A stretch of DNA of 64,000 bases, from positions 62,001 through 126,000 of the forward strand of contig LJZR01000004.1 in the NCBI GenBank assembly GCA_001314865.1. The letters are read 5' to 3'. Both the position numbers and the translations under genes were made by a program. The notes below the pieces were generated by a model. It worked only from the letters and a program-made list of their open reading frames with translations. It made no database searches and was not told the DNA's origin. The DNA comes from Phormidesmis priestleyi Ana. GTDB lineage: Bacteria > Cyanobacteriota > Cyanobacteriia > Phormidesmidales > Phormidesmidaceae. This document shows positions 39,137 to 44,540 of the stretch, piece after piece (within the stretch, counting starts at the first letter, position 1; every line of letters starts with the position of its first letter).

Positions 39137-40942
39137 CTACTGAATGGCCTCTTGTACCCAGCCTTTCAGCGTTGCCACAACATCTGCTAAAGCAATATCA
39201 GCCGCCTCACCATCGGCGCGTTTTACCACTTCTACCTTGCCATCTTTAAGCGATCGCCCCGTCACAACCCGAAACGGAATCCCAATCAGCTCGGCATCTT
39301 TAAACTTCACCCCGGCTCGCTCTTTACGGTCATCTAGCAAGGTCTCTACACCGGCTGCATTCAACTCAGCATATAGCTTTTCAGCTGCGGCCATTTGGGC
39401 TTCATCGCCAATGTTGGGCACTACCACAATTGCGTGATAGGGCGCGATCGCCACTGGCCAAATAATCCCGTTTTTGTCGTAAGACTGCTCCACCGCCGCC
39501 TGCGCTAGCCGCGAAACACCTACCCCATAGCAGCCCATCTCCAGCGGAGCCTCTGTGCCGTCTTCTTGGGTATAGGTCGCCCCGAGCGCCGCCGAATATT
39601 TATTGCCCAGCTGAAAAATATGGCCAATTTCAATGCCTCTAGCCGTTTTCAGAATTTGGCTAGCGTCGTGAATTGCGCGATCGCCTGCCACCGCCGTCCG
39701 CACATCCAAACGAATCTGCGGCAACTCAAACTCCTTGCCCCAGTTCGCCCCCACCACATGAAAGCCACTCTCATTAGAACCCGTCGCAAAATTCTTGAGC
39801 GGCACCGCCGTCTCATCGACAATGCGCAAAAACTTAGGCGCCAAATTCTCCCCCTTCCCGATATAGTCATCCGCCAAATCAGGCGCAATATAGCCCAGCG
39901 GCAACGGCTTAGTTGCCCACTTGCTCTGCGCCTCCTCATCCGGCACTTCCAACGCCAGCACAGTAGACCCGCCATACTCGCCTGCCAAATTAGTCAGCGC
40001 GTTTTGCAGCTTCGTCTCATTCACATCTTGATCAGCCCGAATGCTCACAATCACCAGCACCTGCCGTCCATTGTCGTAAGTCACCTGATACAGCACGTCT
40101 TTAACAACCTGCGTCGGCGAACATTTCAAAAAATCCACCATAGCGGCAATAGTGGCCGTATTGGGCGTCTCTAGCTTTTGATAAGCGGTAAACGGAGAAG
40201 GCTCAGCCTCTGGCGGCAGCGAAACTGCTTTTTCTACATTCGCGGCATACCGACCATCTTCGGTGTATAGCACCTCATCTTCACCGGCCTCAGCCAGCAC
40301 CATAAACTCAGTTGAACCCGAGCCACCAATTGCGCCTGAGTCAGCCTCAACAGCCCGAAACGCGAGCCCAGTACGCCGCAAAATATTGCTGTACGCCTGA
40401 TACATATCGTCGTAGGTTTGCTTGAGGCTAGCTGCATCAGCATGAAACGAATAGCCGTCTTTCATAATGAATTCGCGCCCCCGCAGCAGCCCAAAACGTG
40501 GCCGAATTTCATCCCGAAACTTTGTCTGAATTTGGTACAAGTGAACTGGCAGCTGACGATAAGAGCGAATCGTCTCGCGGGCAACCGCTGTAATCACTTC
40601 CTCGTGAGTGGGGCCAAGCGCTAATTCCTGCTGACGGCGATCGCCCAGCGTAAACATAATCCCCTCAGCTTTGGTGTAAGTATCCCAGCGCCCCGACTCC
40701 TGCCACAGCGACGCAGGCTGAAGCTGTGGCAGCAAGCACTCCTGTGCCCCCGTCGCGTCCATTTCAGAGCGCACAATATCCGATATTTTATTGAGCACCC
40801 GAAATAGCAACGGCAAATAAGCATACAGTCCGCTAGAAATGCGGCGCATATAGCCCGCTCGTAGCAGCAGCTTGTGGCTAGGGATTTCAGCCTCCGCTGG
40901 ATCTTCACGCAGCGTGACAAATAACATCTGAGACAATCGCAT
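39137..40942 (-). CDS. proS: Prolyl-tRNA synthetase (bacterial type with editing domain)
   Basis: The 601-residue class II synthetase charges tRNA-Pro. Motif 2 ([23 protein letters not shown], about 140-162) and motif 3 ([17 protein letters not shown] near 462) are present, along with the INS editing domain (about 225-400) that clears mischarged Ala. The C-terminal anticodon domain ends [15 protein letters not shown]. The ATG has AAGGA six bases upstream. A YbaK-type deacylase, which edits Cys-tRNA-Pro that ProRS cannot clear, lies 1.4 kb away, a reasonable functional pairing though not an operon. Confidence 0.97.
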
Positions 40943-41641
40943 GGGTCTTCCTTAACAACGAGGTGCTTAAACAACGAGGGCTTACTCGGATTTCTCAAAC
41001 AAGTCTAAAGCATCAAGCCACAGGCAAACCCTACCTATCTCAATCTTTTCCGCCTATCTCAATCTCCAAAATCCGCTGACTCATCCACTGGCGTGAAGTC
41101 GGCGCGACATAATAATTAAGTAGATGCCCGTCAGTTTACTTAAGTAAGTTTTGCTAATACTTATAATAATGATCGGTTATATATTTACATTGCTAAAGGA
41201 ATCTAAAAAGAGCTTTAGCACCGAATAAACGACAGACGTATAAACTACAAACGTAAATTGCAGTGGTAAGAGATGAGTCTGCATTGAGAGCCAACCTTTA
41301 GAGCAGGCTTTTGACTCTAGCGATCGCACAAGTATAGGTGGCTAAAGCGCTGCCTAGCAAAAGTTCCCAATACAACCCGCATCTTAAAGCCGTATCGATG
41401 TGCAACGGCGCGGCTGAGATGCTATCAATTTCACTGTTTTCATCATTTTTATTCAGCAGTTTTAGCAGCGCAGAAAATTTTAGCCCTGTGGAAAAGGTGT
41501 CTTTTCACCTCTATCACTTCACCTCTATCACTTCACCTCTCACTTCGTAGCAGCGTGATGAGACCAGGCTTTGCAAGCACCTGTTTTCAAAAAATTTTCT
41601 TCTTCAAAACCTTTTTAAAAAATAATTATCCAAGATCCCTA
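40943..41641. other. Gap between proS and the response regulator
   Basis: This holds a short CTATCTCAATCT duplication (about 41033-41065), an AT-rich probable promoter zone (about 41140-41210) and a 14-bp repeat (41504-41543). A 70-codon Ser/Phe-rich reading at 41338-41550 is not credible. Translation of the regulator could start as early as 41555. Confidence 0.5.
41504..41543. repeat. 14-bp tandem repeat, 2.8 copies
   Basis: The unit TTCACCTCTATCAC lies upstream of the response regulator gene. Confidence 0.9.
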
Positions 41642-42373
41642 GTGAGTAATCCAAGTTACACAATTCTCGTTGCTGAAGATGACAGCCGTACTCGTAAAGC
41701 CCTGGCTCACAGCCTAGAAGCCGCTGGCTATAAAGTCATCATCGCCATAGATGGGCAAGAAGCGTTAGACCAGTTTCAAGCTACAGAAAAGATTGATCTA
41801 GTTGTTCTCGACGTGATGATGCCTCGTTTAGATGGCTTTCAGGTGTGCCAAATACTCAGAGAAACCTCTGATATTCCGATTATTATGGCCACCGTACTGG
41901 GCAACTCTGCTGATCGCATCGTGGGCTTGGAAATGGGCGCCACTGACTATATCGTTAAGCCCTTCTCAACCCAAGAACTCATTGCACGCATCCGTTCTAT
42001 TCTGCGACGTACGCTACCTCATCGCACTGACAACCTTGTGGCTACCGCGCCGCCGCGCCAGCAGGTTTTAATAGTTGGGCCGTTAAGGCTCGATCCAAGC
42101 ACTCACAGAGCTTATCGCAAAGATCACCCGCTGCAACTGACAGAAATTGAGTTTCGCCTACTCGAACTGCTAGCTAGTAAGCCGGGGCATCTTTTTTCAC
42201 GAGGCGATATTTTAGCAGCGCTATGGGGCTACGATGCCAGCAGCGCTGCTGATACCAAGACGGTCGATGTACATATCTCTCGGCTGCGCATCAAGCTTAA
42301 TGACAACACTAGCGATCCAGAGTTCATTTCGACTATTCGAGGGCGGGGCTATATGTTTTTGGTACAGCGCTAA
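41642..42373 (+). CDS. OmpR/PhoB-family response regulator, RpaB-like
   Basis: From the GTG at 41642 the protein has about 243 residues. The receiver starts YTILVAEDDSRTRKAL. The phospho-Asp is in LVVLDVMMPRLDG, the switch Thr in MATVLGN and the Lys in YIVKPFS. The winged-helix DNA-binding domain has the typical LTEIEFRLLELLASKPGHLFSR and VDVHISRLRIKL and ends TIRGRGYMFLVQR. It resembles RpaB (Ycf27) but diverges in the beta4 region and N-terminus, so I do not name it. The frame opens at 41555, adding a Phe/Lys-rich extension that I consider unlikely. No kinase is adjacent. Its last 41 bases overlap the convergent YbaK gene. Confidence 0.85.
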   Translation: MSNPSYTILVAEDDSRTRKALAHSLEAAGYKVIIAIDGQEALDQFQATEKIDLVVLDVMMPRLDGFQVCQILRETSDIPIIMATVLGNSADRIVGLEMGATDYIVKPFSTQELIARIRSILRRTLPHRTDNLVATAPPRQQVLIVGPLRLDPSTHRAYRKDHPLQLTEIEFRLLELLASKPGHLFSRGDILAALWGYDASSAADTKTVDVHISRLRIKLNDNTSDPEFISTIRGRGYMFLVQR

Positions 42374-42806
42374 TCGCCCCTACGCTTGCCCCAGTAGCCT
42401 TCACATAATCAGCTGTTTGCAGCATTAGCATTTGCCCTCGCAGCCCTGCTGATACAGCGATGCGATCATACAGTTGTGACCACTCATCTAAATAGGTGGG
42501 GTAGGGCTTTTTGCAGGCCAACGCTGTAACGCCGCCCCGAATATAGCCAGTTAGCGGCTGCACTTGCTTAAGTGAGACGGTCTCTATTTTGCGATCACCA
42601 CTGAGCTGCGCTAACGCCTTTAGATCAAGCTGATAGCTGCCCGGAATCACGGCCAAAGCGACCCCATGGCGATCGCCCTTAACAACCAATGTCTTAAAGA
42701 CCTGATCTGCCGGTAGCCCCAGCTTTTGCGCAGTCGAAGTTGCCGCCAAGTCGTCAGCATCCACCTCGTAACTCAGCAGCGTATACTCAATACCCAACCT
42801 GTCCAA
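42333..42806 (-). CDS. ybaK: YbaK/EbsC-type Cys-tRNA(Pro) deacylase
   Basis: The protein hydrolyses Cys-tRNA-Pro (and related mischarged tRNAs) in trans. The fold shows SYEVDADDLAATSTAQKLGL, QVFKTLVVKGD with the key Lys, VIPGSYQLDLKALA and GGVTALACKKPYPTYLDE. The only ordinary start codon is TTG at 42806, but family members normally begin with MKTNAARxLD, and codons just upstream (42807-42845) encode KNKSTKTNAART. That upstream part begins after TGA 42849-42851, the stop of the in-frame diguanylate cyclase gene. An ATC at 42843-42845 has GAGG eight bases upstream and may be the true start (170 residues). The 3' end overlaps the response regulator gene by 41 bases. Confidence 0.85.
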   Translation of the reverse strand: MDRLGIEYTLLSYEVDADDLAATSTAQKLGLPADQVFKTLVVKGDRHGVALAVIPGSYQLDLKALAQLSGDRKIETVSLKQVQPLTGYIRGGVTALACKKPYPTYLDEWSQLYDRIAVSAGLRGQMLMLQTADYVKATGASVGAISAVPKTYSPALE

Positions 42807-42848
42807 AGTCCGAGCAGCGTTGGTTTTTGTAGACTTGTTTTTGATCGA

Positions 42849-44540
42849 TCAAACCTCTTCTAACTTGGCAAGGCAAAAGCGATCGCGACCTTCATACTTA
42901 GCCTGATACAAGCCCTGATCAGCCGCTGCGACCAACATATCACGATGCCTTCCTTTCGTGCAGCTCACCGCCGCAATGCCCAGGCTCACAGTAATGCAGT
43001 GGCTAATCTCTGAGCAGCTATGCGGAATTTCTAGCTGCTGAATCTCGCGCTGAATCTCGCGGGCAACTTGCTCTACGCCTGCCACGCTCGTATTGGGCAG
43101 CACCACCGCAAATTCTTCACCGCCGTAGCGAGCGACCAAGTCAGTACTGCGCTTCACAGCTCTTTCTATTGCTTGAGCGACCTGACGCAGGCACACGTCT
43201 CCAGCCTGGTGTCCGTAGGTGTCATTGTAGTTTTTAAAGTAGTCAATATCGCACAAAATCAGCGATAGAGACGATCGACCCGAGCCCACATTCTCCCACT
43301 CCTTCTCCAAATACTGATCAAACGAGCGGCGGTTGGCCACTTTGGTCAGGCCATCCATACTTGCTAAACGCGACAGCTCTTGATTAATTTCCTTGAGCGC
43401 GACCTCGGCATGCTTATGCTTGGTAATATCCGTGGCGGTGCCAAAAACTTGCGTCGGCTGGCCCTCGCTATCCCGCTGAAAAACTGTCTCACGGCACAAT
43501 AACCAGCGCCAGTTACCCTGCCGATGCCGAAAGCGATATTCATTTTCAACGACTTCCCCATCGTTAATGGCCGCGAGCTTACTGCGCTCTGTGGCCATAT
43601 ATTTTTTCTCATCGGCATGCACCAACTGCTCTAAATACCGAGGACCGAGCTTTTGTACTTCGCTTGGCTCGTAGCCCAACACGTTTTTTATCCAACGGCT
43701 GATATAAAAGTTGCTGCCATCAGCAAAGCTATCTACATACAAAATATTGGTGCTAGCATCAATAATGCCTTGAATAAATCGCTGGCTTTCTTGCCAAGCC
43801 TGTTCTGCCTGCTCACGTTCAATCGTTTCGCGTTTTAGCTGCCGGCTATGATTGGCTAGCAATGCCGATAGCGATTGCTGCTGTTGAGAATCAATCGCCG
43901 TTGCCGCTAGTAAAGCAATCGCCAAGGCAGTCGATTGCTCTAGCTCGCTCCAGCAATGAGCATCGGCCAACTCGTACCACAGTACACCTGCTACTTTCCC
44001 CTGCCGTCTAATGGGCATTTCTAAAAATGCGCCAGGCGTGTGAAAAATTAAATCGTTCTGGATAAAGTTGCCTAGCCAGGGGATGGCCTCAGCTTTGCTA
44101 ACATTTTCTAGGGTTAAAGGAGAGCGATTATCTATCCCTTGCAAGTAATCAGTACAGTCGGTCAAACGACCATCCGTGATCTCACCCGTACGGCTTTCCA
44201 CCGTCAACACAATCCCTGCTGAGTGCTTATCTTTAGAGCGGTTATAGCTATCTAGCTGCTTAAGCTGCCGTTCAGTGGCCTCATATATCCACAAGGTCAC
44301 TCTATCAACGCATAGCATCGTCGCGGCTGTGCTTGTGAGTGTCATCGCGGCGGTTGCTAAGTCGCCGCTGTAAATAGAAGGATGCTGAGAAAGTAAATAT
44401 AAGCCCTGCTGCATCGCCTGCTGATTAAACGCAGATTTCTCAAGCACCTGATGTGTAGAACTTGGAAGCGACCCATCGGATCGCTCCTGCAATGTTTTAG
44501 CGGCAGATCGCATAACAGATTGCTCTGAGAGAATTGACAT
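42849..44540 (-). CDS. GAF-PAS-GGDEF diguanylate cyclase
   Basis: The 563-residue protein has an N-terminal GAF domain (about 50-210), a coiled linker (RQLKRETIEREQAEQAWQES), a PAS/PAC domain (about 255-385; ILYVDSFADG, EYRFRHRQGNWRWLLCRE) and a C-terminal GGDEF domain (about 395-560). The active-site loop reads RYGGEEF, a functional variant. LILCDIDYFKNYNDTYGH is the metal and nucleotide-binding region. It should make cyclic di-GMP from two GTP in response to GAF/PAS signals. No EAL domain is present. The C-terminus (CLAKLEEV) is followed by one TGA and then, in the same frame, by YbaK. Confidence 0.94.
   Translation of the reverse strand: MSILSEQSVMRSAAKTLQERSDGSLPSSTHQVLEKSAFNQQAMQQGLYLLSQHPSIYSGDLATAAMTLTSTAATMLCVDRVTLWIYEATERQLKQLDSYNRSKDKHSAGIVLTVESRTGEITDGRLTDCTDYLQGIDNRSPLTLENVSKAEAIPWLGNFIQNDLIFHTPGAFLEMPIRRQGKVAGVLWYELADAHCWSELEQSTALAIALLAATAIDSQQQQSLSALLANHSRQLKRETIEREQAEQAWQESQRFIQGIIDASTNILYVDSFADGSNFYISRWIKNVLGYEPSEVQKLGPRYLEQLVHADEKKYMATERSKLAAINDGEVVENEYRFRHRQGNWRWLLCRETVFQRDSEGQPTQVFGTATDITKHKHAEVALKEINQELSRLASMDGLTKVANRRSFDQYLEKEWENVGSGRSSLSLILCDIDYFKNYNDTYGHQAGDVCLRQVAQAIERAVKRSTDLVARYGGEEFAVVLPNTSVAGVEQVAREIQREIQQLEIPHSCSEISHCITVSLGIAAVSCTKGRHRDMLVAAADQGLYQAKYEGRDRFCLAKLEEV

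Follow-up and report, generated by a model that had tools for sequence, protein, structure and literature searches.

An AUC codon as a possible start of ybaK in a cyanobacterium, in the same sequence context as the start of infC

Control of near-cognate start codons by initiation factor IF3 has been described for infC, which starts with ATT in E. coli and with ATC in Streptomyces and is subject to IF3 autoregulation, and for Streptomyces sigR, which starts with GTC and is repressed by IF3 (PMC5472188). The sigR start was investigated by mutational analysis and Western blotting, and the codon is reported as GTC in 32 of 34 species and as GTT in the other two (PMC5472188). Expression of an rny-lacZ fusion of B. 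subtilis is described as persisting, at a much lower level, with an engineered AUC start (PMC10303841), and switches from AUG to AUN starts are very rare, with 1 AUU in 61,358 according to the report consulted (PMC5622118). A published account of an AUC-started ybaK or of near-cognate starts in cyanobacteria was not found in the open-licence PMC literature. If AUC is indeed used, the ybaK gene of Phormidesmis priestleyi Ana would be an added case of what is already known from infC and Streptomyces sigR, that is, near-cognate starts under IF3 control.

ProRS makes the Cys-tRNA(Pro) errors that YbaK corrects. The gene examined here is the sole copy of ybaK in the genome and is located in a stretch of DNA of 64,000 nucleotides, called the window below. 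Its product is a predicted Cys-tRNA(Pro) deacylase of the YbaK/EbsC type: the open frame matches Pfam PF04073 and, in a profile search, TIGR00011, with the latter match beginning at the T of the KTN motif, and the E. coli YbaK protein (PDB 2dxa_A) is alike in sequence over nearly its full length (query residues 6-156 of 171, E 3.5e-21). The frame runs uninterrupted to its usual end and is 73-78% identical to that of five genus-mates. A confident AlphaFold2 model was obtained for the product starting at ATC, with a mean pLDDT of 93.8 (36-row alignment). Compared to known YbaK/EbsC proteins the protein is ordinary-looking, and only the start codon stands out.

Read 5' to 3' on the minus strand, the sequence at the junction of the cyclase gene and ybaK is TTA GAA GAG GTT TGA TCG ATC AAA AAC AAG TCT ACA AAA ACC AAC GCT GCT CGG ACT TTG (features are listed in Table 1). 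The YbaK frame opens at the codon after the cyclase TGA, in the same phase, and comprises 171 codons without stop (42333-42848 including the stop codon), of which TTG 42806 is the first ATG, GTG or TTG. The in-frame codons between TGA and the KTNAART segment are TCG ATC AAA AAC AAG TCT ACA; ahead of the conserved YbaK N-terminus the window has no ATG, GTG or TTG as far back as the in-frame stop. A putative Shine-Dalgarno sequence lies at a usable distance from the AUN codon, GAGG (42854-42857) ending 8 nt before ATC. The first-pass annotation had described the TGA as being in phase with YbaK, TTG 42806 as the only ordinary start and the ATC as following GAGG by 8 bases, and both coordinates and spacing were correct. 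Gene callers restricted to ATG, GTG and TTG would probably pick TTG 42806, which would truncate YbaK inside its first helix. Predicted RNA folding around the ybaK start is weak (-8.7 kcal/mol, z 1.62), with values of -7.3 kcal/mol and z 0.11 for infC, and does not discriminate among starts.

Table 1. Features at the junction of the cyclase gene and ybaK; positions are those of the window.
Feature	Position	Strand	Remarks
ATC, proposed ybaK start codon	42843..42845	-	second codon after cyclase stop; 8 nt after GAGG; layout as in infC of the same genome
AAGAGG, putative Shine-Dalgarno sequence	42854..42859	-	within last cyclase codons; same hexamer and spacing before infC ATC
TGA, diguanylate cyclase stop	42849..42851	-	in phase with ybaK here, in 0/6 genus-mates
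ybaK (predicted Cys-tRNA(Pro) deacylase, YbaK/EbsC)	42333..42845, stop included	-	170 residues from ATC; TIGR00011, Pfam PF04073 (open frame), AlphaFold2
TTG, first canonical start of ybaK open frame	42804..42806	-	encodes helix-1 leucine, nearly invariant in 36-row alignment
KTNAART codons, N-terminus of family	42807..42827	-	upstream of first canonical start
GAF-PAS-GGDEF diguanylate cyclase gene	42849..44540	-	Pfam GAF, PAS_3, GGDEF; upstream of ybaK in 6/6 genus-mates

Relatives in the family appear to start ybaK in an ordinary way. Searching 62 other genomes gave a ybaK match in 56, and the loci of 50 were inspected (the matches outside this set are in G008, G010, G018, G024, G046 and G047). 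The nearest canonical codon before KTN, present in all 50, is ATG in 32 and GTG in 18 and lies 1-6 codons from the K of KTN (25 at 1, 17 at 2, 1 at 3, 4 at 5 and 3 at 6 codons); we infer that it is the actual ybaK start in each of these relatives. Absence of a canonical start before KTN is therefore confined to the window (0/50 relatives), and an AUN start codon of ybaK is not conserved. Among the six genus-mates, KTN is immediately preceded by ATG in four and by ATG CCG in two. The codon aligned to the ATG of the four is ACA (42828-42830), five codons downstream of ATC; it was set aside as a start since two of its three bases do not match ATG. AAG (42834-42836), which aligns to the ATG of another relative (L043, MPTKTN), was also rejected, with GAGG 17 nt away. 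As a start codon AAG is a near-cognate and among the poorest. The first-pass annotation had proposed to look in relatives for ATG at the codon corresponding to ATC. It is found there in none of the six genus-mates, which start one or two codons before KTN, but the offset of six codons between ATC and KTN recurs for the nearest canonical start in three of the 50 family members, which are more distant. In two genus-mates (L001 and L004) an ATT precedes the ATG by five codons, at the offset that ATC has from ACA; this ATT was considered as a conserved near-cognate site and is taken as a chance occurrence, given a base rate of 29% and the ATG directly before KTN in both.

The closest parallel is found in the same genome. 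Its infC gene (G000:C82) reads TAA GAG GAA AAT ACA ATC GCT AAA AAA CCA, and from its stop up to the conserved IF3 sequence it contains no canonical codon. The hexamer AAGAGG, the spacing and the ATC codon are identical in ybaK and infC of this genome, and in all seven genomes of the genus infC has ATC after AAGAGG-N8 and lacks an upstream canonical codon in its frame; the leader of one (L071) has AAA instead of AAT. This arrangement of infC, in the same genome and in six genus-mates, provides the strongest support for AUC as the start of ybaK. At the level of the family, 21 infC loci of a divergent type (the seven of the genus included) and 15 of a canonical type were compared. The divergent type has ATC in 20 loci and ATT in one, and 18 of the 21 lack any upstream canonical codon in their frame; the start is less certain in L239, L241 and L242, where a TTG precedes it by a few codons. 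In the canonical type ATG is in frame in 13 of 15, out of frame in L226, and the L228 locus is incomplete. One infC was found in each of the seven genus genomes (L067-L073; here L068, G000:C82:14216-14665), each with ATC as its apparent start and encoding a divergent IF3-like protein that scores about 150 bits, while 15 of the 62 genomes in the family that gave a match, representing 8 of 14 genera, have a copy of the canonical type, which scores about 190-245 bits; the genus may rely on the divergent IF3 alone. The likeness has a limit, in that the ATC of infC is conserved across the genus whereas the ATC of ybaK occurs in one genome only. We know of no role of YbaK in translation initiation.

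The presence of an ATC by itself means little because in-frame AT[CTA] codons often arise by chance. A survey of 770 kb of the genome (13%, window included) in six frames gave 34,121 stops after which seven codons contain neither a stop nor a canonical start, and an in-frame AT[CTA] was found within seven codons of 9,824 of them (28.8%). The number decreases to 664 (1.95%) when a Shine-Dalgarno 4-mer at 5-10 nt is included, and ATC with such a 4-mer follows 0.78% of the stops. The arrangement GAGG-N8-ATC occurs seven times; the recognised genes among these are ybaK (170 codons) and infC (161 codons), the other frames being open for 75, 29, 7, 13 and 21 codons. Since the pattern was picked after both genes had been seen, these counts are a description and not a clean test. 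In 1.6 Mb of genome G003 there are 16 GAGG-N8-ATC sites, with infC as the sole recognised gene and another frame of 143 codons that looks repetitive.

An ortholog sample of reciprocal best hits between the 770 kb and the 1.6 Mb of G003 contained 267 pairs, 186 of them without overlapping frames. In 32 rows, by which 20 of the 186 pairs were flagged, conserved residues precede the first canonical start of either genome; 11 of these 20 lie over a longer ORF that is read in a different frame. Sorted by inspection, the other nine are infC (in both genomes), ybaK (in this genome only), two pairs flagged only on the G003 side, four with few leader residues before ATG in both genomes, and the pair L137/L157. 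Among these nine, a canonical start before the conserved N-terminus is absent in this genome for ybaK and infC, with L137/L157 unsettled. In the latter pair nine codons separate the in-frame stop from a shared GTG, and eight of them are conserved as protein (L137 is on the plus strand, with the ORF from offset 10568), so there is either a start further up at a non-canonical codon or a conserved leader DNA. No frameshift was recognised in the sample of this genome (161 pairs of at least 100 amino acids, 54,458 aligned residues compared to G003). Six rows were split in the comparison, two by a break in G003 and four by a break here, the latter four being antisense to longer ORFs, and C-terminal lengths were unequal in 5 of 161 pairs.

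The best single reading is that ybaK is translated from the AUC codon, to which we assign a probability of about 0.48. This reading is favoured because it explains both the conserved N-terminus and the Shine-Dalgarno sequence without assuming an error, and confidence stays just under one half because it concerns one genome and is predicted from sequence. Ribosomes would bind AAGAGG in the last cyclase codons, 8 nt before AUC, and initiation with fMet at this codon would give a protein beginning with M-KNKST-KTNAARTLDRLG... Ribosomes that have just terminated at UGA, three bases upstream of AUC, could assist by coupling. The old start may have been removed or altered when the distance between the cyclase stop and KTN contracted to 21 nt (40-455 nt in genus-mates), and low, IF3-sensitive expression of ybaK would be a consequence of AUC use. 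Such IF3 sensitivity would follow by analogy from the reports on sigR and infC. Streptomyces sigR resembles the proposed case of ybaK: it is not part of the initiation machinery, and its non-canonical start is accompanied by a Shine-Dalgarno sequence. The sigR start was studied by experiment, however, whereas that of ybaK is deduced from sequence (PMC5472188). Doubt about the AUC start comes from the rarity of AUG-to-AUN switches, from the dependence on one base in one draft genome, and from the apparent dispensability of ybaK in the family. The wider proposal, that ybaK recently took on an infC-type start (AAGAGG-N8-AUC) behind the cyclase stop, by which tRNA proofreading would now be under the influence of IF3 level and cyclase translation, is doubtful.

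Several explanations that do not involve AUC were weighed. A recent mutation, the third option of the first-pass annotation, may apply here, since the species is represented by one genome. A wrong or private base, by which the canonical start of the species was altered here through a substitution error or a culture-specific change, is rather unlikely. ATG is one substitution away from ATC as well as from AAG (42834-42836), canonical starts occur in all 50 relatives inspected, and one genome per species was compared, but a random error is not expected to yield the exact infC layout. The lack of a recognised frameshift in the sample compared to G003 also argues for a sound sequence, although that sample does not bear on substitution errors. 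It is unlikely that YbaK begins at TTG 42806 as a shorter protein that lacks KTNAART and is still functional. This codon is the first canonical start, and its product still matches TIGR00011 (3.1e-43), yet with 147.1 bits it falls below the curated cut-off of 153.25, whereas the product from ATC is above it with 156.5 bits. In the AlphaFold2 model of the ATC product the first helix comprises residues 9-17 and the TTG codon corresponds to residue 14, so the TTG product would lack five of nine residues of this helix; T8 and L14 occur in at least 90% of 36 aligned YbaK sequences. Furthermore, no Shine-Dalgarno-like sequence is seen before TTG 42806, a start at this codon is needed in none of the 50 relatives, and the KTNAAR codons are conserved as protein: compared to the six genus-mates, silent changes number 2, 3, 3, 2, 4 and 4 among the six codons and amino acid changes 0, 1, 0, 0, 0 and 1, respectively, leaving the segment unchanged in four and with one replacement in two. 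A recent loss of the start, with ybaK now decaying or silent, is quite unlikely. It would agree with the ACA in place of the ATG of four genus-mates, with the shrunken spacer, with the missing ybaK match in 6 of 62 family genomes and with a 56-codon ybaK remnant with a normal ATG in the genus-mate G001 (L030:2507-2677). Because the frame ends after 56 codons in G001, the gene can be lost within the genus, and judging from these genomes the family can evidently do without ybaK. In this genome, however, the frame has remained open and well conserved, and no second copy is available.

The remaining alternatives concern the junction with the cyclase gene. Stop-start overlaps are common in bacteria, and the TTG overlapping the cyclase stop (TTGA, 42850-42852) could be a start in another frame, with a one-base difference or a slip in an A5 run restoring the YbaK frame. 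Two runs of five A are indeed present, but GAGG is just 1 nt from that TTG and the genome sample gave no recognised frameshift, which makes this explanation very unlikely. Read-through of UGA to produce a cyclase-YbaK fusion, which the first-pass annotation had listed beside an AUC start, is extremely improbable. A single TGA separates the two frames, which share one phase, and the genes are neighbours in all six genus-mates, but a shared phase between two adjacent genes has a chance of one in three, and it occurs in none of the six. The spacers between cyclase stop and KTN in L001, L002, L003, L004, L030 and L041 are 40, 124, 232, 50, 455 and 212 nt, respectively, all out of phase, and the one in the window is the shortest among the seven genus members. 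Read-through is without comparative support because, of the seven genomes, only this one has both genes in one frame. The AUC start is the better supported of the two options, with no canonical start here as compared to canonical starts in all 50 relatives, and with the layout of infC.

If the infC-type start of ybaK is real, a cyanobacterial gene that is not part of the initiation machinery would be sensitive to IF3. Use of AUC would add one more gene besides infC to a short list, would mean that a canonical start was swapped within a genus for one that IF3 should repress, and would make infC and ybaK, with the same Shine-Dalgarno sequence and spacing, a natural pair for examining IF3 discrimination in cyanobacteria. 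If AUC is not used, the locus illustrates well how a single base of a draft genome may mimic exotic initiation.

The putative Shine-Dalgarno sequence is possibly old coding sequence, because it is located within the cyclase gene and GAGG is also present in the L004 cyclase tail at a similar place; the motif before ybaK may thus be inherited from the cyclase. The leaders of L004 and the window have AAAAACAAG in common, which hints at a homologous leader and settles nothing. In G001, the match to a convergent response regulator gene starts where the ybaK match of L030 ends, as if a deletion had joined both. The proS gene is found 3' of ybaK on the same strand (window 39137-42373 region), and in L001, L003 and L004 the proS match starts about 120-350 nt past ybaK. 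The proS match of L003 (3213-5004) is in three overlapping pieces, as if frameshifted, and is likely an assembly error because sequencing coverage is about 3. Between ybaK and proS the window has a response regulator gene (41555-42373, plus strand) whose end overlaps that of ybaK by 41 nt.
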